Positions 5,561-48,800 of a stretch of 64,000 bases of DNA are shown one piece after another. How positions within the stretch are numbered: the stretch's first letter is position 1; each line of letters starts with the position of its first letter. Made by a program: the position numbers and the translations under genes. The notes beneath the pieces were generated by a model. The model was not told the origin of the DNA, did not search any database, and worked only from the letters and a program-made list of their open reading frames with translations. The DNA comes from Anadara kagoshimensis (taxonomy: Eukaryota; Mollusca; Bivalvia; Arcoida; Arcidae). Location of the stretch: positions 35,151,997 through 35,215,996 of the forward strand of contig CM037871.1 of assembly GCA_021292105.1 (NCBI GenBank), read 5' to 3'.

Positions 5561-6216
5561 TACTGTTTAATTCATGTCCGGCAGAGCACATGTTTTTCAA
5601 GCTTTTAGATATGAAAATCAATAAATTTTCTATCATGTCATATACCGTTGTTAAGTATGCATTTTGTCGTAATAAATGAGCACCAAGGTACATACCATCT
5701 CATTCAGAAAATAAAACGCAAAACTTTTTAAAATCCTTGCGGGGAATTTGTTATTGTTTACTTTTGGAACAGACGAACGGAAGTTGCAATCATCCGGGCA
5801 ATTTCAAGTTTATCCTGGATTTGCCTATTCATCGTGGGTACGATCACGTAACAAGGGGAAACAACTCCTACAATTTCATTGTTTACAGCTACTGTTTTTC
5901 TTTGGGTAGTCTCCCTTTAGTCAGACGATCTTACCGGTGTGAAAAAATGGAATCGTCGTACATGTGCAGTTCAATTCTTCTGAGCCATATGTTTTAAACT
6001 TCCTGTCGTCTGTATGGCTCCAATGCATAGATCCCCGCAAGGATTTTAAAAAGTTTTGCGTTTTATTTTCTGAATGAGAAGGTATGTACCTTGGTGCTCA
6101 TTTATTACGACAAAATTCATACTTAACAACGGTATATGACATGATAGAAAATTTATTGATTTTCATATCTAAAAGCTTGAAAAACATTTGCTCTGCCGGA
6201 CATGAATTAAACAGTA
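5561..6216. repeat. Long inverted repeat: 185-bp arms, about 286-bp spacer
   Basis: The left arm (5561-5745) starts TACTGTTTAATTCATGTCC and runs into AAAATCCTTGCGGGGA. Its reverse complement fills 6032-6216 with only a few differences. The RNA or single strand would fold into a very long hairpin. It is probably a foldback transposon or long-TIR non-autonomous element. The 86-codon ORF in the spacer has no domain and is not called as a gene. Confidence 0.8.
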
Positions 6217-7117: not shown

Positions 7118-8692
7118 GTCTGTCTCACACAGAACACGGTTGGGCACACGGTTCCACAGTTCCATGTGACTCGGTTATACACGGGTTGACTGGTACGAGT
7201 ATTGAGCTCCAATCGTACCTGGGTTGGTACGATTTAGACTCGAATATCTGAATATAGCACGAGTATGTACGAACATTATACGGATATACTCGGTCAAGCA
7301 AGGTTTGTCACGGTTTGAACACGATTTGCAAACGATTTTCATACGATTGTTGTACGGTTCCAAGTACGGTCTGTTACGGCTTAGTACGATTAAACACGAC
7401 TTTTACTCGATTAACTGGACATTTACAGGGTTTACATACGGTCCCACAGACTTTTGTTCGAGTTATGCTCGAATTTTCACACATTCGTGTATGTTTTGAT
7501 ATAAATTGACTCGTTTTGATTTATACATGTACATGTATATACGATATTGACACGGTTGAGCTCACTTGTCAGCTTGTGGAGTGGACTTCGTACGGTCTCG
7601 TACGGTCTCACATGGTCGTGTACGATCGCTAATACGATCATACACGGACATGGCACCCGTGCCAGTTTTTTAAAAGTTTTAAAAATCATACACGGCTTTC
7701 ACGGATACACTCGAATGGCCCGAGTGTAAGTCGGATAAGACCACGGTTGGTTCAGTTGTATGTATGGTTTACACGGGTGGCCAACCGTATATATAAGCCG
7801 TGTGTTCTAGCCCAAGAGCTAGTGGGGTTTGAAATATGTGTCAATGGCCAAAAGCTTTGAAGGTTGTTTCTGATAGAAAAATGTCTGTAGTTTTCGAATT
7901 TGGGCGTCTTGTGAATGAACTCGTTTCCGATTTTTTTTCAGACGCGAGTTTTTACACTAGAATCGCATTTTTCAGCCGGTTTTTCGGTAATTTGATAATT
8001 CTGCATTATGGACGCGATATGGCCTTAAAATGTCTTATTACTGATGCGGTTATCAAGAATTATGATCATTGTTGACATTTAAGTTAAAAACTTCTTGATA
8101 CATTTCAGATTTTTTTTTAAAATAACTATTTTAGGAAAAAAATAGACCAAAAATTTTGCGTTTTTAATATTTTGCCCTCTTTTATGTCTTATAAAAAAAA
8201 ATAAAAGCATTTAAGTGAAATGTTTTACCATATTGTCACAGCCTAATGTGTTTTGCATTCAATAAAAGTAGCTGCATATCATTTGGTAGGAAATTGCGGC
8301 ACCCACAGTGGAAAAACTTTCCCCTACCCCAAAATTGCAAATTTCTCAAAAAATCGATCTTTACTACATATTTTGCTATTAGTTGCCATACTGATTGTTA
8401 TACCGTGTAAGCTTTAATACTTGGGTGACAACATTGAAGACCTCTAACTAAAAACTTCTTGTTAAGCATTCAATCTCAATTTTGTGGCCAATTTTAAACA
8501 ACCGAGTTTTGCGTTTTTACTTAATCTTTATTCGTTAAAGTCTTGTAGCGCATTCAAAAAAAGCCTGATTATCAATATACTATTTTATTTAGAATCCCTG
8601 ATGTTTGTGCTTTATTGTGCAAGTATAATGTATAACACAATCGTCACACAAACCCTTTCACCACAATTTATTCTTCCCCCTACCCCATATGC
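7118..8692 (+). repeat. Left terminal inverted repeat, split by the 7135-7807 insertion
   Basis: Bases 7118-7134 and 7808-8692 together match the reverse complement of 13972-14869. The junction is visible because the right copy reads continuously CAGAATAGCCC, whereas here CAGAA and TAGCCC are 673 bases apart. A 79-codon ORF (7836-8075) occurs identically in the right repeat at 14585-14824. It is a property of the repeat, not evidence for a gene. Confidence 0.85.
7135..7807. mobile_element. Nested insertion of unusual CpG-rich motif composition
   Basis: This block is absent from the matching place in the right terminal repeat. Its ends are short inverted copies (GAACAC and GTGTTC). I counted about 47 CpG dinucleotides in 673 bases, nearly all in ACG or TCG contexts such as TACGG, ACGATT and CTCGA. 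They recur every 10-20 bases in both orientations, and the surrounding DNA is AT-rich and CpG-poor. No long ORF is present. It looks like a non-autonomous element built from many subterminal protein-binding-like motifs; the family is unknown. Confidence 0.6.
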
Positions 8693-9247
8693 AATAAATA
8701 AGCGAGTTCGCGAGATATTGATTTTACACTTGTGCGTTCTCAGGCAGTGAGATTTTAAACACGGTAGAGTGTTATAACGTAAATTTGTACTTGAAACATA
8801 TAGTAAATTACGCTGTTAGCTTGTTTATTCAATGCTTTGATTTTTTGTATTATTAAGCAATGATAGTGCCACGCCCTTTTGTATGACTCGGCACATGGCG
8901 CTGCGCAAAGCGTTTGTGTTACGTTTTCTGTCATTGCAAATCACACGTGGTTGCAATTATAGATACTTTCATATGGTTGTTGTTTATGATAAGTAAGAAA
9001 AAACTATTCATCCCTTTTTTCTATTGTTTTGTTACCGTTTATATTTCGTGTGAACAAGTTGATTTTATTTAATATTTGTTTTTAAAAAGAATCCGTGTTC
9101 ACAATAGAATCAATGAAGTTTTGACGCAGATAAGTAATCTGTTTGTTAATTCTATTTGATTCCGTGACTGAATTAAAATCACTGTAAATAATATTTTGCG
9201 ATTTGTTTGTGATAACTCATTGTCATTTCAATTAGAAGTGTTGCAAA
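8693..9247 (+). promoter_or_regulatory. 5' non-coding region of the transposon ORF
   Basis: About 550 bases lie between the inner edge of the left repeat and the ATG at 9248. The DNA is AT-rich and no other ORF is supported. It presumably holds the promoter and leader of the ORF, but no convincing TATA/initiator pair could be chosen. Confidence 0.35.
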
Positions 9248-12200
9248 ATGGCCAGCACACGGCTGGATACATCTAAGGGGAAACAGATATTACAGGGCGA
9301 TAGCACAGATGAAACAAATCTTGTTTGTTGCCTTCATGTCGATAAACGTTTCCAAGATATAGAAATTAAACCTTTTGATGAAACAACATGGAGTAAAGTG
9401 GCAAAAGTTGCTGAATATCGTCTTTCGAAAACAAAATCCCACAAATATAAACAAATTTGTCAAGATCTTCCTCAAAACTTTGATCCTAAAACCAATGGTT
9501 ATCACAGAATGTGTTACAAGAACTTCACTGCTGTCTCAAAAAAAGAACTAGAGTCTTTTTCCACTGTAGAAGTAGAAGAAGTTTCTTACACTTTAAGATC
9601 CCACACTGAACATTTATCGGACGAAACTTCCTCCTCCGGTATTTTTCTTCCCGTATGTTTGTTTTGTGGCCTCCTGACGAAGGGTAAGAAAAGGGAACAG
9701 TTAGGCAATTGTGAAAGTTTGGAAGCGGGAGAAAAAATAAAAAATGCTGCAATGGTTCTGGGTGATACAGATATGATTGCCAGAGTTTGTGATATAGATT
9801 TTGTTGCTAAAGAGGTTAAATATCACCATAGCTGCCGAAAACATTACTTAAATCTTTCTGAGAGGTGTATACCCGGGTCTGCTAAGACAGAATATGGCAA
9901 CATTAGGCTAGGACACGAAAAAGCATTTAAATGGTTGACCGAATACATAAATAAAAACGTTATAGCACAAGGTCAAGCTGTAACAATTGCCTCCTTGTAT
10001 GAATATTACACTACAATGCTGATGGACATTGGTCTTGATTGCTCCTCATATACCATCCAGACTTTAGAAGTAAAACTTCTAAATCACTTCAAAGATGATA
10101 TTTGCATGAGTAAAATAGGTAAACGACAAGGCAAAATATTATATCCAAGCTTTCTAGATACAGATCAGATTATAGGTTTCCATAATACGTTTTTATTAAA
10201 TTCCAAAGTCACTGAAGCTGCATACCAGTTGCGAAATACAATATTAGAAATGTCAAAGACATGTCCCCAATTACAGAACCCATTGACTGTAAATGAAATA
10301 CAGAAAGGCCAAGCTAACCCCCCAGACATACTTATGCAGTTTTTTAAAACTCTATATACAGGGTCTTCAACAAAAGAACCTTCTGAAAGAATGAATAGAT
10401 GCATCAGTTCAGCAGCAGATGATGCTTTGTTTGCTGTAACCAATGGCGAAATAAAGCCATCAAAACATTTATGTCTTGGACTGGGTTTTAAAAGTATGAC
10501 TGGTAGTAGGAAAATTATTGAAGTACTAAATCATTTAGGGCACTCAATAAGTTACCATGTTGCGGAGACACTTGAAACTGAACTTGCAATGACAATATCA
10601 GACAGGAATCAGCTAACTCCTGATGGATTACTGAAAATTCCAAACTTGTCAACCGGAACGGCTTGGGATAATTATGATGAAAACACCGAGACTTTGTCTG
10701 GAAGCGGAACTTTGCACGACACAGTTGGAATATGTTACCAGAACACTCCCGACGAACAACATTCAATGGGGGACTCTCTAGGAATTCCACAAGTATCCAC
10801 TACACAAACAAAGTCATTGAAACGTAAACGCTCTTTAGATATTGAGGACCCTATTTTAGAATCTTACAGAAAGCGTCCAAAAATAACAAAATTTCAATAT
10901 CCCGTAAAAGCAATTTCGGACCCCTCTAATTTAAATGAGACCAGAAAAAGGGATTTAACATGGGTGATTTGTCACCATTTATTTTCTAATATACCCATGT
11001 GGTCAGGATGGAATTCTCTAATCACAGTAGATCATCTACCAGAGCAAGTGATAGGCTATATGGACAATATAAGTTTGCCACCGACCCGATTAGATGTGGT
11101 GTCGGAAACATTACGTCGATCGCAGATTGTGGCACGGGAATGTTCTGATAACACAGCAATTGTCCACTATGATCTTGCCATAGCTAAACCAGCGATGCAG
11201 ATACAATCGGAAGAATCACCAAAGTACGACAATATTTTCATATGTTTTGGTCCTTTCCATATAATGTTGGCATATTTTGGCGCTCTTGGTCACTTAATTG
11301 AGGGCTCTGGCGGACCATATGTGCTAACCGAGACCAAAGTTCTGGCAGAAGGGTCTCTAAATGGGTTCATAAAAGGGAAGCATTATAACAGATGTCAGAG
11401 AATGCATACTATATTATCTCTTTCTTTCCGTATTCTCCATTTTCGGTCTTTTCTGGAAGAGCATGGTCAGATATCTGAATCTTTATACGAGCAGTTAGAA
11501 CAATTCATTACAAATACTTCTTCAGAAGAAATGCAAAACGTTCTAGAGCAAGAAAATTTAAAATCTATTTTTGATATGTATGAAGCCTTTTCCAATGACA
11601 CAAGAACTGGAAACCATGGATCAACAGCACAGTATTGGTTTATGTATATTGAATTAGTTGAACTTCTGTTACTTTTCAGTAGATCTTGTCGAACTAACGA
11701 TCTACCTTTATTTACTTACTGCTTAGGAAAAATGTGTCCAGTATTTTTTGCAGCTAATAGACCAAACTATGCAAGATGGATGACACGCTATCACTTAAAT
11801 TTACTTAACATTGATATAAGTCATCCACAAGCAAGAGCAATGCTTGAGAATGGTGGTTTGTCTATAAGACGCTCGAATAAATCATTTTCCAGAATTCCAG
11901 TGGACATGACACTTGAGCAGACAATCAATGCTGATGCTGCATCTCGTCTAACTGGCATTTCTGCATTCAGCCAGTCATATACGGCCAGGCGAAGATGGAT
12001 GATTACACGAAGTGTCCGCAGTGCTATCGTTGGTGCTCTTCTCTCAAAAACTGGAATCCGGAAAAAGGGGGATGTGAATCAAGAGCTCAAGCCGTCGCGA
12101 ATTCAGAGAGATAATAAAGATGTAAGTAGTTTGATCGACTGTATTAAAGCAACTAAGAATCCGTTTGATACAGAGATAAGAAATGAGGATCTCCTGTGCA

Positions 12201-13816
12201 TATCAACTGGTAACAGAGTCAAAGATGATGTGAAAAATGAGATACTTAGTTGTGTAAAATATGGCGAGCAATCTTTTCACGACTTTAGAAATGGCTGTTT
12301 TGCAGATCCCTCTAGATTTGAAAAACCTATTACAAGAAACAAATTGCGCACTTTTGCATCTTTGGCACTTAAGGTTCGGGTTGAGGTGAAAGCAAAGAAA
12401 ATCATACAGCTACAGTGTTCACGTGATCTATTTGGTAGGCTTTTGTTTTTGGCAACGACAACAGATATAAACTTGCAGAAAGTTTTTGAATATCCTCTCA
12501 CTCCCGTGCCGCCAGCTCTTGCACAAATTGACGGGAATATGAATAAAACCGACAAATCAATACTTATGAAAATGTTAGAGAGCAAGGCTCATTCTGATCC
12601 TCCAGCTGCAAATCAAATTGATGCTTATGTCGTTGATGCCATGTTCCTTATACAGTTGCTGTCAAACCTACCAGATACTTTTGAAGGTGTAGCCAAAACC
12701 ATTCTCAAGCTATTATGTAAACTGGCAAAAGAAATACACTTTGTTTGTGACACATATGTCCATCCATCCATCAAAGATATTGAAAGAGATATGCGAGGAG
12801 AGAGCAGTGGACCAGATATTGTAGTAATGGGCCCAAAACAAAAGCGACCTCATGATTTCCGTTCAGCTTTGAAATCTGCTAATTTCAAGAGGTCATTACT
12901 ATCGTTTTTGCTACAAGAATGGAAGAATGATAACTATGCTGACATTCTTGCAGGCCATACATTATATTATGCAACAGAGGACCACTGCCATCAATTCTAT
13001 TGCGAAAATGATGCAACAGTAGTGTGCAGTGAAGTGTCCAATCTTGCCTGTACCCACGAGGAGGCAGATACCAGGATCACCTTACATGTGCAATACATTG
13101 CCTCAAGGTCCGATTCTCCTAACGTAGTGGTTAGAGCAAATGACACGGATGTAATGGTTATTTTATTGTATCATTGTCACCAAATACATGCAAACATATG
13201 GATGGATTCAGGCACTGACGGCACCAATACTAGGCGATTTATTGATCTAACAAAACTGTCCAATGAAATTGGGATCGAAATGTGCCAAGTTCTTCCAGCT
13301 ATCCATGCTTTCACTGGATGTGATTATACTGCAGCATTTCTTAGAAAAGGTAAAATTAGGCCTTATAATATCGTTGAAAAAAGTGCAACTTTCAGAAGCG
13401 TTTTCTCAAATATTGGAACAAATCAAAGAGTTAATGAAAGAGATATGAAGGTAATGGAATCTTTTGTCTGTGAAATGTATGGCAAAAAAAACATTAAAAC
13501 AGTAAATGAGGCACGATTTGCCATTTTCAGAGAGAAATACGCTCCAACAAATCAAACTGACCCATTAGAAAAGCTCAAAGGAGCCGATCGAGTTCACTAC
13601 CTCCTTGTAAAAGTGTTCTTGTCAGAAAATCCTCCGAACAGAATATGTTGCATATTTTTGGAAACATGCCAATTGCATTGTCCTACATTAAATACTCCAC
13701 AAGAAAATGGATGGAAAAAAGAAAATAACAAGTATGCGATTCACTGGTTTGAAGGTGAACAGATTCCGAAAGATATAAGACTGAAGATGGACAGTACAAA
13801 CTTTTACAGAGGATGA
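9248..13816 (+). CDS. Transposon-encoded 1522-aa protein with Cys/His fingers and FEN1/XPG-like C-terminal motifs
   Basis: One uninterrupted ORF fills the space between the terminal inverted repeats and is probably the element's transposase. The N-terminus has two Cys/His clusters: C27-C28 with H86/C89, and C137-x2-C140 with H193-H194, C196 and H199. These look like DNA-binding zinc fingers. The middle has a basic stretch around residues 525-550 (KSLKRKRSL, RKRPKI). Near the C-terminus three acidic motifs occur in the order seen in FEN1/XPG PIN-like nucleases: HEEADTR (about 1269), ANDTDVM (about 1297) and FTGCDYT (about 1354). FEN1-like enzymes place EAEA, D-x-D and LLGCD similarly. Academ-type transposons are known to encode an XPG-like nuclease, so that superfamily is a candidate; this is inference. 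The ORF ends STNFYRG, but an acidic tail continues in the +1 frame to 13883, suggesting a single-base change. Uncharacterised proteins with the same C-terminal motifs occur in other invertebrates. Confidence 0.85.
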   Translation: MASTRLDTSKGKQILQGDSTDETNLVCCLHVDKRFQDIEIKPFDETTWSKVAKVAEYRLSKTKSHKYKQICQDLPQNFDPKTNGYHRMCYKNFTAVSKKELESFSTVEVEEVSYTLRSHTEHLSDETSSSGIFLPVCLFCGLLTKGKKREQLGNCESLEAGEKIKNAAMVLGDTDMIARVCDIDFVAKEVKYHHSCRKHYLNLSERCIPGSAKTEYGNIRLGHEKAFKWLTEYINKNVIAQGQAVTIASLYEYYTTMLMDIGLDCSSYTIQTLEVKLLNHFKDDICMSKIGKRQGKILYPSFLDTDQIIGFHNTFLLNSKVTEAAYQLRNTILEMSKTCPQLQNPLTVNEIQKGQANPPDILMQFFKTLYTGSSTKEPSERMNRCISSAADDALFAVTNGEIKPSKHLCLGLGFKSMTGSRKIIEVLNHLGHSISYHVAETLETELAMTISDRNQLTPDGLLKIPNLSTGTAWDNYDENTETLSGSGTLHDTVGICYQNTPDEQHSMGDSLGIPQVSTTQTKSLKRKRSLDIEDPILESYRKRPKITKFQYPVKAISDPSNLNETRKRDLTWVICHHLFSNIPMWSGWNSLITVDHLPEQVIGYMDNISLPPTRLDVVSETLRRSQIVARECSDNTAIVHYDLAIAKPAMQIQSEESPKYDNIFICFGPFHIMLAYFGALGHLIEGSGGPYVLTETKVLAEGSLNGFIKGKHYNRCQRMHTILSLSFRILHFRSFLEEHGQISESLYEQLEQFITNTSSEEMQNVLEQENLKSIFDMYEAFSNDTRTGNHGSTAQYWFMYIELVELLLLFSRSCRTNDLPLFTYCLGKMCPVFFAANRPNYARWMTRYHLNLLNIDISHPQARAMLENGGLSIRRSNKSFSRIPVDMTLEQTINADAASRLTGISAFSQSYTARRRWMITRSVRSAIVGALLSKTGIRKKGDVNQELKPSRIQRDNKDVSSLIDCIKATKNPFDTEIRNEDLLCISTGNRVKDDVKNEILSCVKYGEQSFHDFRNGCFADPSRFEKPITRNKLRTFASLALKVRVEVKAKKIIQLQCSRDLFGRLLFLATTTDINLQKVFEYPLTPVPPALAQIDGNMNKTDKSILMKMLESKAHSDPPAANQIDAYVVDAMFLIQLLSNLPDTFEGVAKTILKLLCKLAKEIHFVCDTYVHPSIKDIERDMRGESSGPDIVVMGPKQKRPHDFRSALKSANFKRSLLSFLLQEWKNDNYADILAGHTLYYATEDHCHQFYCENDATVVCSEVSNLACTHEEADTRITLHVQYIASRSDSPNVVVRANDTDVMVILLYHCHQIHANIWMDSGTDGTNTRRFIDLTKLSNEIGIEMCQVLPAIHAFTGCDYTAAFLRKGKIRPYNIVEKSATFRSVFSNIGTNQRVNERDMKVMESFVCEMYGKKNIKTVNEARFAIFREKYAPTNQTDPLEKLKGADRVHYLLVKVFLSENPPNRICCIFLETCQLHCPTLNTPQENGWKKENNKYAIHWFEGEQIPKDIRLKMDSTNFYRG

Positions 13817-13883
13817 CATGGGAGAAGATGAGGATGTACGTGAATCCGACAGTAGTGATAGTGAAGACACTGATGATGAATGA
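13800..13883 (+). other. Out-of-frame acidic tail of the transposon ORF
   Basis: Just before the stop at 13814-13816, the next frame reads TFTEDDMGEDEDVRES and continues with Ser/Asp/Glu residues to a stop at 13881-13883. So acidic and in-register an extension suggests the true C-terminus, lost by one extra base near the T run at 13802-13805. Confidence 0.5.
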
Positions 13884-13971
13884 AATTATAATTCTGAATG
13901 AATACGAGTTATTTTGAACCAGCCTGTCTAAGAGCACTAACACAGTATATCCGTGAATTCGCATATCGTTA

Positions 13972-14869
13972 GCATATTGGGGTAGGGAAGAATAAATCTG
14001 GGTAATGGGTTAATGTGACGATTTTGTTACACATTATACTTGCACAATAAAGCACACACATCAGGGATTCTAAATAAAATAGTATATTGATAATCAGGCT
14101 TTTTTTGAATGCGCTACAAGACTTTAACGAATAAAGATTAAGTAAAAACGCAAAACTCGGTTGTTTAAAATTGGCCCCAAAATTGAGATTGAATGCTTAA
14201 CAAGAAGTTTTTAGTTAGAGGTCTTCAATGTTGTCACCCAAGTATTAAAGCTTACACGGTATAACAATCAGTATGGCAACTAATAGCAAAATTTGTAGTA
14301 AAGATCGATTTTTTGAGAAAATTTGCAATTTTTGGGGTAGGGGAAAGTTTTTCCACTGTGGGTGCCGCAATTTCCTACCAAATGATATGCAGCTACTTTT
14401 ATTGAATGCAAAACACATTAGGCTGCGACAATATGGTAAAACATTTCACTTAAATGCTTTTATTATTTTTTATAAGACATAAAAGAGGGCAAAATATTAA
14501 AAACGCAAAATTTTGGTCTATTTTTTCTAAAATAGTTATTTTAAAAAAAATCTGAAATGTATCAAGAAGTTTTTAACTTAAATGTCAACAATGATCATAA
14601 TTCTTGATAACCGCATCAGTAATAAGACATTTTAAGGCCATATCGCGTCCATAATGCAGAATTATCAAATTACCGAAAAACCGGCTGAAAAATGCGATTC
14701 TAGTGTAAAAACTCGCGTCTGAAAAAAAATCGGAAACGAGTTCATTCACAAGACGCCCAAATTCGAAAACTACAGACATTTTTCTATCAGAAACAACCTT
14801 CAAAGCTTTTGGCCATTGACACATATTTCAAACCCCACTAGCTCTTGGGCTATTCTGTGTGAGACAGGC
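13972..14869 (-). repeat. Right terminal inverted repeat of the large transposon
   Basis: This is the reverse complement of 7118-7134 plus 7808-8692. It is uninterrupted and ends outward in CTGTGTGAGACAG. The outer 600 bases match best, and the inner end near the GGGGTAGGGAAGAATAAAT segment carries more differences. Confidence 0.85.
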
Positions 14870-19760: not shown

Positions 19761-20810
19761 TTACTGTATTGGTAATATGACATTTCGTCTTCTCAAAAAA
19801 GCATATAACAGATTTGTGAACCGTATTCGATACTCCGAACTAGATTTAATAAACAAAAGACAATTGAAACAAGAATACGAAAAATCGGCTAGTCTTGCTG
19901 CACATAATGTTAACACATTATAATCGGTTAACCCGAAGTTTTTCATATTATGCATCACCAGCATACTCATGACTATAACGTTACATACCAGGAACAGAAA
20001 ACACATTTTACATATGACCATTGTCAGTTTTTTTTCTTTTATCAATAAACGATTGCATGTTGGGAAAATCTTTCTGATGAGCATTTTGAGTTTGATAATT
20101 ACGAGTAACGTGCTTACTGCAACCAACACAAGTGATACCAACATCACCGACAAGTAGATTATACCACTAACCTCTTTTGAGAGGAAAAATGGCATAAAAA
20201 GTAAGTTCATCAAAATAGTACTCACATAGCTGATTTGTACAAGTCTTAATCCAAATTTTGGTGTCCAAATAGTTCGAAAATCAATGGGTTTAAACACAGC
20301 AAAAATTCTCTCAGTGACACAGATGGATGACATTATTCTTGAGATAAGTACTGGAACATTAAGATATGGTAAAAAGTAAGACAAAACGTCGAACCTGACG
20401 AGTATAGCTGGGTCCAGTTTGTAGATCAACATTAACGTATATCCACAAACAATAGCTAGTAAGTCAGCTACTGTTAGTCCCATCACGATGTAAATGGTGG
20501 AAGTTTTCGGTTTATACGTATATAATACTATCAATGTTACTATGTTAACGACAATACCAAATAAAGCTAAAGAAGGCAAGATTATGAAGACTATGACTCC
20601 AGAAATAGTGCCAATCCAATCCACTCCAACAATGCTGGTTACATTGGTATTGGGAATGTTCATGTCTGTATTACACAGTACACTTACTGTAGTAAGTGAA
20701 GACATATTCATAATAACCGATTGTAATAAATCTGAAACTTCGAATAATATATCTAGGTAAACTATGACTCGCCCAATACCTGTTGGCTGCTGTAAGGATA
20801 TGCTGCACAT
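19761..20810 (-). CDS. Rhodopsin-like (class A) G protein-coupled receptor, 349 aa
   Basis: A single-exon ORF with seven hydrophobic segments at roughly residues 69-98, 105-129, 144-166, 190-210, 216-240, 262-286 and 297-322. Class A landmarks are present in modified form: N89 in TM1, LTVAD (112-116) in TM2, TER-IF (166-170) in place of DRY after TM3, and NCLLF (316-320) in place of NPxxY in TM7. N-glycosylation sequons NMS (35) and NVT (56) lie in the extracellular N-terminus. The ligand is unknown; molluscan orphan and peptide receptors of this divergent type are common. The first ATG (20810) gives 349 aa, and ATGs at residues 34 and 36 are equally plausible starts. Extracellular loop 2 is only about six residues and lacks the usual cysteine, so there may be an internal deletion. 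No stop or frameshift interrupts the ORF. Confidence 0.8.
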   Translation of the reverse strand: MCSISLQQPTGIGRVIVYLDILFEVSDLLQSVIMNMSSLTTVSVLCNTDMNIPNTNVTSIVGVDWIGTISGVIVFIILPSLALFGIVVNIVTLIVLYTYKPKTSTIYIVMGLTVADLLAIVCGYTLMLIYKLDPAILVRFDVLSYFLPYLNVPVLISRIMSSICVTERIFAVFKPIDFRTIWTPKFGLRLVQISYVSTILMNLLFMPFFLSKEVSGIIYLSVMLVSLVLVAVSTLLVIIKLKMLIRKIFPTCNRLLIKEKKLTMVICKMCFLFLVCNVIVMSMLVMHNMKNFGLTDYNVLTLCAARLADFSYSCFNCLLFIKSSSEYRIRFTNLLYAFLRRRNVILPIQ

Positions 20811-45800: not shown

Positions 45801-48800
45801 ATTAGAATGTTGTAGGTATTGATACAACGATCATTTTGATATATAGAAAAAGGTCATGGGTTCATAGGTCAAGGTCACAGATGTGAAACAATACTGAAAT
45901 GGTTAATTATCTCGAAAACTATAAACTTTTTGTATAGGCATGTATATTAGAATGTTGTAGGTATTGATACAATGGTTATCATGATGTAAAGAAAAAAGTC
46001 ATTGGGGTTTAGTATTTATGTGTTCTTTAAATCTATCAGCTAGCCATTAGTTATCAGGTGAGCGTATCAGGCCCATGGGCCTCTTGTTTATGTGTATGTG
46101 AACATTGAATTTTTATATGTGACACTTAAATAAAATAAATTATTATTATTATTATTTATAACATAATTAATATTATAGAATCTAAGAACTAAAACCAGTT
46201 CATTAGAAATTTTTCATCTAGAACGTTTTATTTCACAAGTTACTTAACTGTTTTACTGTTTCAGGATCATGCCTTTGTTGGTTTTGATGAGGATAAGAAA
46301 AAATATGTAATAAAGGATAACGGAAGTCAAAATGGTACATTTCTAAATGAAGAGAGGTTATCAGAGGTTAGTAATTAACTATTAAACTGTAAAGAAATAC
46401 CTTCCAATGACGTGCAAAGAAAACTGAATATGGCGTGCAAATGTTCAGATTAGTTTGCTTTGCATGTTGATGAAAATAATGGCAATACAAACACTATTTC
46501 TTGTCTATTGATTATGGACAAACAACATTGTCGTGTCCGCTTGACCTTTAATTTAAATATTTATTATGAACCAGTAGTGCTAAAACTTCCACTTGCATGT
46601 AAAGCTCAGAAACTTGTCAAGGAAGTTATGGCCAGTTTTGTTAGCATGACCAGGAAAGCTATAACAGGCATTGGTTTCACAGTAATTTCTTAGTTAAGAA
46701 TTTCCTTAACTTCAATGTGTCAAATTTGAAATCTGAATAATTTTATTAGTTTTCAAGATATTCTTTAATTTAAGGTGTCATTTTGGAGATCATTTCGAGC
46801 TTAAATTATCTTCAGTCTAATTTTGTTGAAATTTTCAATTTAGTATGATAAAAGATCAACAAAAATTGCCAGATTTAAGTTAAGGAAAATCTTAGTTAAG
46901 GACAGATTGTAAAACTGGATCCAGATGCTATTTTTAAGCTGGCTGGCTAAATCTTTTAAGAGTAATTTGATTTCATTTCTTTAGGTTTTTTGGACCTGCA
47001 ACATAAAGACCAATTTGATATGTTGTTTTTGTTTATTGAAATATTTAAAAGACCCTGCAAGCCTCATCTGAAATCTTGTACCAGAGGGGGCTGGGGTGAG
47101 GTGTTTATGATCATGACATTATAAATTCCCTCATTATGACAAATGAATTTTGTCGTCAGCGCTCCAAATAAACAGCTGTTCTATGACATCATTTAATACA
47201 GTTTCTAAGGACTCTATGACATCATTTGATACAGTTTCTAAGGACTCTGTGACATCATTTGATGCAGTTTGTAAAGTTTCTATGACATCATTTGATACAG
47301 TTTGTAAGGCCTCTATGACATCATTTGATACAGTTTCTAAGGACTCTATGACATCATTTGATACAGTTTCTAAGGACTATGACATCATTTGATACAGTTT
47401 TTAAGGACTCTATGACATCTTTTGATACAGTTTCTAAGGACTCAATGACATTATTTGATACAGTTTCTAAGGCCTCTATTACATCATTTAATACAGTTAC
47501 TAAGGACTCTATGACATCATTTGATACAGTTTCTAAGGACTCTATGAAATCATTTGATACAGTTTCTAAGGACTCTATGACATCATTTGATACAGTTTCT
47601 AAGGACTCTATGACATTATTTGATACAGTTTCTTAGAACTCTTTGACATCATTTGATACAGTTTCTAAGGACTCTATGACATTATTTGATACAGTTTCTA
47701 AGGACTCTATGACATCATTTGATACAGTTTCTAAGGACTCTATGACATTATTTGATACAGTTTCTAAGGACTCTATGACATCATTTGATACAGTTTCTAA
47801 GGACTCTATGACATTATTTGATACAGTTTCTAAGGACTCTATGACATCATTTGATACAGTTTCTAAGGACTCTATGACATCATTTGATACAGTTTCTAAG
47901 GACTCTATGACATTATTTGATGCAGTTTCTAAGGACTCTATGTCATTATTTGATGCAGTTTCTAAGGACTCTATGACATTATTTGATACAGTTTCTAAGG
48001 ACTATGAAATCATTTGATTCAGTTTCTTAGGACTCTATGACATTATTTGATGCAGTTTCTAAGGACTCTATGACATTATTTGATAGTTTCCAAGGATTCT
48101 ATGACATCATTTGATACAGTTTCTAAGGACTCTATGACATTATTTGATACAGTTTCTAAGGATTCTATGACATTATTTGATACAGTTTCTAAGGCCTCTA
48201 TTACATCATTTAATACAGTTACTAAGGACTCTATGACATCATTTGATACAGTTTCTAAGGACTCTATGACATCATTTGATACAGTTTCTAAGGACTCAAT
48301 GATATTATTTGATACAGTTTCTAAGGACTCTATGACATCATTTGATACAGTTTCTAAGGACTCTATGATATTATTTGATACAGTTTCTAAGGACTCTATG
48401 ACATCATTTGATACAGTTTCTAAGGACTCTATGACATTATTTGATACAATTTCTAAGGACTCTACGAAATCATTTGATACAGTTTCTAAGGACTTTATGA
48501 CATTATTTGATACAGTTTCTAAGGACTCCATGACATCATTTGATACAGTTTCTAAGGACTCTATGACATTATTTGATGCAGTTTCTAAGGACTCTATGAC
48601 ATTATTTGATTCAGTTTCTAAGGACTCTATGACATTATTTGATGCAGTTTCTAAGGACTCTCTGACATTATTTGATGCAGTTTCTAAGGACTCTATGACA
48701 TTATTTGATACAGTTTCTAAGGACTCTATGAAATCATTTGATTCAGTTTCTTAGGACTCTATGAAATCATTTGATACAGTTTCTAAGGACTCTATGACAT

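Follow-up and report, generated by a model that had tools for sequence, protein, structure and literature searches.

Which part of a transposon protein would cut and join DNA when that protein carries both a candidate transposase core and a nuclease domain? The question is raised by a 64,000-nucleotide (nt) stretch of the Anadara kagoshimensis genome (assembly GCA_021292105.1, contig CM037871.1, positions 35,151,997 to 35,215,996, forward strand; hereafter, the window), in which a 7,045-bp element with long terminal inverted repeats encloses a single large open reading frame (ORF). A preliminary description of this DNA had proposed a poorly described superfamily in which a PIN-like FEN1/XPG module does the cutting. 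We put at roughly 80% the probability that the element belongs to the AcademX lineage, superfamily Academ, as a DNA transposon that moves autonomously by cut and paste, with an Asp-Asp-Glu (DDE) catalytic core and an accessory nuclease.

Element borders and probable assignment to Academ

The borders were established from copies collected, as the preliminary description had proposed, across the window's own assembly (1.115 Gb, 36 contigs). Every copy with both ends present (19/19) started with TAGCCC, ended with GGGCTA, and was flanked by a perfect 3-bp target-site duplication (TSD); the count covers 20 loci taken from the 31 matches of a protein search, with L009 left out because one end lay outside the locus. 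The TSDs consisted only of A and T in 16 of the 19, versus 29% expected (binomial p ~8e-7, assuming the 66% A+T of the window). The inverted repeats of about 900 bp had been correctly recognized, measuring 913 bp with 97.9% identity in the family consensus. The outer borders first given, 7118 and 14869, were misplaced and correspond to the ends of a ~700-bp repeat, which the transposon insertion splits 12 bp from the repeat's right end. This host repeat has its own 18-bp perfect terminal inverted repeat, CTGTCTCACACAGAACAC. It is older than the transposon and unrelated to it: of 141 candidates for a 641-bp query derived from it, 40 places were scored, and the nine other full-length or near-full-length copies among them are 80 to 87% identical.

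As a DNA transposon with terminal inverted repeats, a nuclease-bearing transposase, and a 3-bp TSD, within the 3 to 4 bp of the lineage, the element resembles AcademX. It is assigned there because its nuclease and TSD match AcademX as published, the yardstick being the published description (TSD length, nuclease, DDE-class core). The AcademX nuclease is of the XPG type, in line with the XPG nuclease that the preliminary description ascribed to Academ elements. Academ and AcademX reportedly go back to Kapitonov and Jurka in 2010 and Kojima in 2020, as cited by others, and the papers of Kojima (2020) and Yuan and Wessler (2011) are said to define Academ. The published classification lists Academ among the DDD/E superfamilies; with a nuclease and a 3-bp TSD as published for AcademX within it, the proposal of a poorly described superfamily is not supported. 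PMC10045372 gives TSDs of 3 to 4 bp for AcademX and 9 to 10 bp for AcademH, a difference that it ties to the presence of a nuclease versus a helicase; the role of the AcademX nuclease is published there only as a suggestion linked to TSD length. AcademH belongs to the same superfamily as published, but the window element combines a nuclease with 3 bp. Membership in AcademH was considered and is ruled out by the 3-bp TSD in 19/19 copies; DUF6589 is the only Pfam family found for the ORF up to an E value of 10. Among molluscs, Academ occurs almost exclusively in bivalves according to PMC10294476, and at 7.05 kb the window element is longer than the 5,565-bp mean of the curated consensus elements given there. 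The excerpts of PMC10799480, PMC5753468, and PMC4455052 offer only the Academ naming and references. In the open-licence literature searched, no title or start of abstract pointed to experiments on an Academ transposase, and the term DUF6589 was absent.

Protein domains and their possible roles

The single 1,522-codon ORF of the preliminary description is confirmed, as are the HEEADTR, ANDTDVM, and FTGCDYT motifs near its C terminus, which start at amino acids (aa) 1270, 1297, and 1355. A PIN-like nuclease fold is predicted over the whole C-terminal domain, which contains seven active-site carboxylates, D1130, D1168, E1272, D1274, D1299, D1301, and D1359; by their FEN1 positions we take these to be the metal-binding carboxylates. 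The exceptions in related loci, D1130 replaced by Y in L055 and D1299 by A in L054, both lie at degraded loci. Two arginines, R1180 and R1183, are conserved after the second Asp. The domain resembles FEN1, Exo1, XPG, and GEN1 in predicted fold, in the seven carboxylates, and in the two arginines; it differs from them in being fused to a transposase and in its 9 to 16% identity in the structural alignments listed. The predicted fold and the conserved residues together support a FEN1/XPG/Exo1-type nuclease, as the preliminary description had proposed.

The central region appears to supply the transposase core. The ORF had been said not to look like a standard DDE protein, a claim that is unsupported because D474, D642, and E890 are invariant across four families from this genome, and weak homology links the region to DUF6589. 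The region around E890 aligns with a D...E pair in two loci of the DUF6589 type, L029 and L040. Structure prediction did not recover an RNase H (DDE) fold for the central region; the invariant triad suggests that it may adopt one. DUF6589 proteins (PF20231), L029 and L040 included, have a core related to the central region, although the match of the window protein to the family is sub-threshold. L029 also carries nuclease motifs, and L040 matches the nuclease region of the window protein at an E value of 1e-3, while no match to that protein turned up in the short stretches of DNA compared for four further DUF6589 loci (L021, L022, L024, and L031). As separate observations, L022 has an opposite-strand ORF that by eye resembles a RecQ-type helicase, and L029 (G000:C5, ~4786215) has a single 1,225-aa frame in which a GDSL lipase-like N terminus (PF13472, E 1.7e-8) precedes FEN1-like motifs and a DUF6589 core.

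At the N terminus, the Cys/His clusters noted earlier are evident in the translation as two, spaced C27-x2-H30...H86-x2-C89 and C137-x2-C140...H193-x2-C196. They are zinc-finger-like and could bind the transposon termini. In the mechanism that we favor, these fingers would hold the long terminal repeats while the DDE domain nicks the element at its ends and then links these to target DNA with a 3-bp stagger; the triad is identified by conservation and the 3-bp outcome is observed, and we infer the chemistry. The C-terminal domain would give the protein a structure-specific nuclease of its own for trimming or cutting the branched DNA that arises during excision or insertion, a role suggested by its predicted fold and active-site residues. 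Labor would in this way be divided between the DDE core and the FEN1-like domain.

The cutting could be apportioned differently. The preliminary description made the PIN-like module the main cutting enzyme, which would leave the central region a merely structural or targeting part. The nuclease is indeed alone in having a confident catalytic fold, no residue of its active site is missing in the window family, and the central region yielded no DDE fold, but this proposal leaves unexplained the invariance of D474, D642, and E890 in four families, extending in part to DUF6589 proteins, and disagrees with the placement of Academ in the published classification. Moreover, FEN1-type nucleases are known for cutting DNA but not for joining 3' ends to a target. 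We regard it as improbable. Even less credible is a different, undescribed superfamily that merely resembles Academ: the Pfam match of the window protein is only sub-threshold and the likeness to Academ is judged from published descriptions, yet AcademX as published is matched in TSD length, in nuclease type, and in the candidate DDE-class core.

A possibility that we entertain tentatively overlaps the favored reading, namely that both domains cut, the DDE domain one strand per end and the FEN1-like domain the other, jointly making the double-strand break. It would fit the conservation of both the DDE triad and the nuclease site, as well as the remark in PMC10045372 that the TSD-length difference between AcademX and AcademH seems tied to nuclease versus helicase. 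On the present evidence, it is inseparable from a DDE core with an accessory nuclease. Weighing against it, many DDE enzymes need no partner to cut both strands. That the FEN1/Exo1-type domain makes cuts essential to transposition, such as that of the second strand at each end, and is more than an accessory seems to us rather doubtful; if true, a single cut-and-paste reaction would be shared between two nuclease folds that are unrelated yet belong to the same protein.

Age and uniformity of the family

The AcademX type is already known; what this locus adds is the youth and uniformity of its family. Among 1,230 first-look candidates, the protein search scored 31 matches; besides the window copy there were 30, all full-length, 98% identical, and free of internal stops. 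The 18 non-window copies that were aligned differ from their majority sequence by 15 substitutions in 126,991 bp (~1.2e-4 per site), with L014, L015, L018, and L019 identical to it. All 18 read 1,545 aa, a biased sample of ORF intactness because matches were ranked by full-length protein score. For a 281-bp terminal-repeat probe, 40 places were scored among 446 candidates. Each is a 100% identical match and lies on contig C1 or C2; by position, 34 fall into 17 pairs (16 spanning ~7.0 kb and one spanning 5.3 kb), which leaves six unpaired. With a 108-aa nuclease-core query, 150 of 646 candidates were scored, again at 100% identity in 150/150. Given the low divergence from the majority and the 100% identical probe matches, the amplification burst is very recent and, in the sampled copies, consists mostly of full-length elements. 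The frames open around the 150 nuclease-core matches were, by row count, 1,549 aa in 31, longer in two, and shorter in 117. Certain short frames (649, 1389, 481, and 1188) recur among these copies with identical nuclease cores, reflecting either shared frameshift sublineages or assembly indels.

The window copy is less pristine than its ORF had suggested. It departs from the family majority by 6 substitutions and 14 indel events, 12 of the latter within 13588-14542. Three single-base deletions (13588, 13621, and 13677) throw the reading frame off and bring it back, and near 13800 the acidic tail is lost to another ending through a 1-bp insertion, so that the protein has 1,522 aa where the other aligned copies have 1,545; strictly, then, the ORF is not intact as had been stated. 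The excess of single-base indels over substitutions also fits assembly noise. Recent activity, which the preliminary description had read from this ORF, thus finds its support in the near-identical copies of the family and not in the window copy itself, and the family may still be active today. So uniform a family should lie close to the active sequence and would make the role of the nuclease testable at the bench.

Feature coordinates and other observations in the window

Table 1. Positions of the transposon, its parts, and the host repeat within the window
Feature	Position	Strand	Details
Older ~700-bp repeat, left part (insertion host)	7120..7807		outside the transposon
TSD, left copy	7805..7807		TTC
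Whole transposon, window copy	7808..14852	+	7,045 bp; TAGCCC...GGGCTA; termini and 3-bp TSD common to 18 other copies
Left terminal inverted repeat	7808..8718	+	inner border approximate; from consensus and window arms
Transposase ORF	9248..13816	+	1,522 aa here; 1,545 aa in 18 other aligned copies
Cys/His cluster 1, likely zinc finger	9323..9514	+	aa 26-89; from translation; similar by eye in L054, L056
Cys/His cluster 2, likely zinc finger	9656..9835	+	aa 137-196; from translation; same pattern by eye in L054, L055, L056
Candidate first catalytic Asp, D474	10667..10669	+	motif DNxD; identical in 4/4 A2 rows with residues there
Candidate second catalytic Asp, D642	11171..11173	+	identical in 4/4 A2 rows with residues there
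Weak DUF6589 match	11207..11926	+	aa 654-893; Pfam PF20231, E 2.9e-4, 20.1 bits, below cut-off 27
Candidate third catalytic residue, E890	11915..11917	+	motif VDxTxEET or EQT; identical in 4/4 A2 rows with residues there
Predicted FEN1/XPG/Exo1-like 5'-nuclease domain	12545..13705	+	aa 1100-1486
Indel stretch relative to other copies	13588..13800	+	three 1-bp deletions, 1-bp insertion
Right terminal inverted repeat	13947..14852	-	inner border approximate; from consensus and window arms
TSD, right copy	14853..14855		TTC
Older ~700-bp repeat, right end	14856..14867		

Elsewhere in the window, an inverted repeat at 5561-5745 and 6032-6216 (185 nt, 98%, arms 286 nt apart) is perhaps a foldback element or a miniature inverted-repeat transposable element. 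A 349-aa ORF at 19761-20810 (-) looks by eye like a seven-helix receptor, and a 224-aa ORF at 48080-48754 (+) consists of a short, repeated VSKDSMTLFDT-like peptide and is thus a tandem repeat that happens to be open in this frame.
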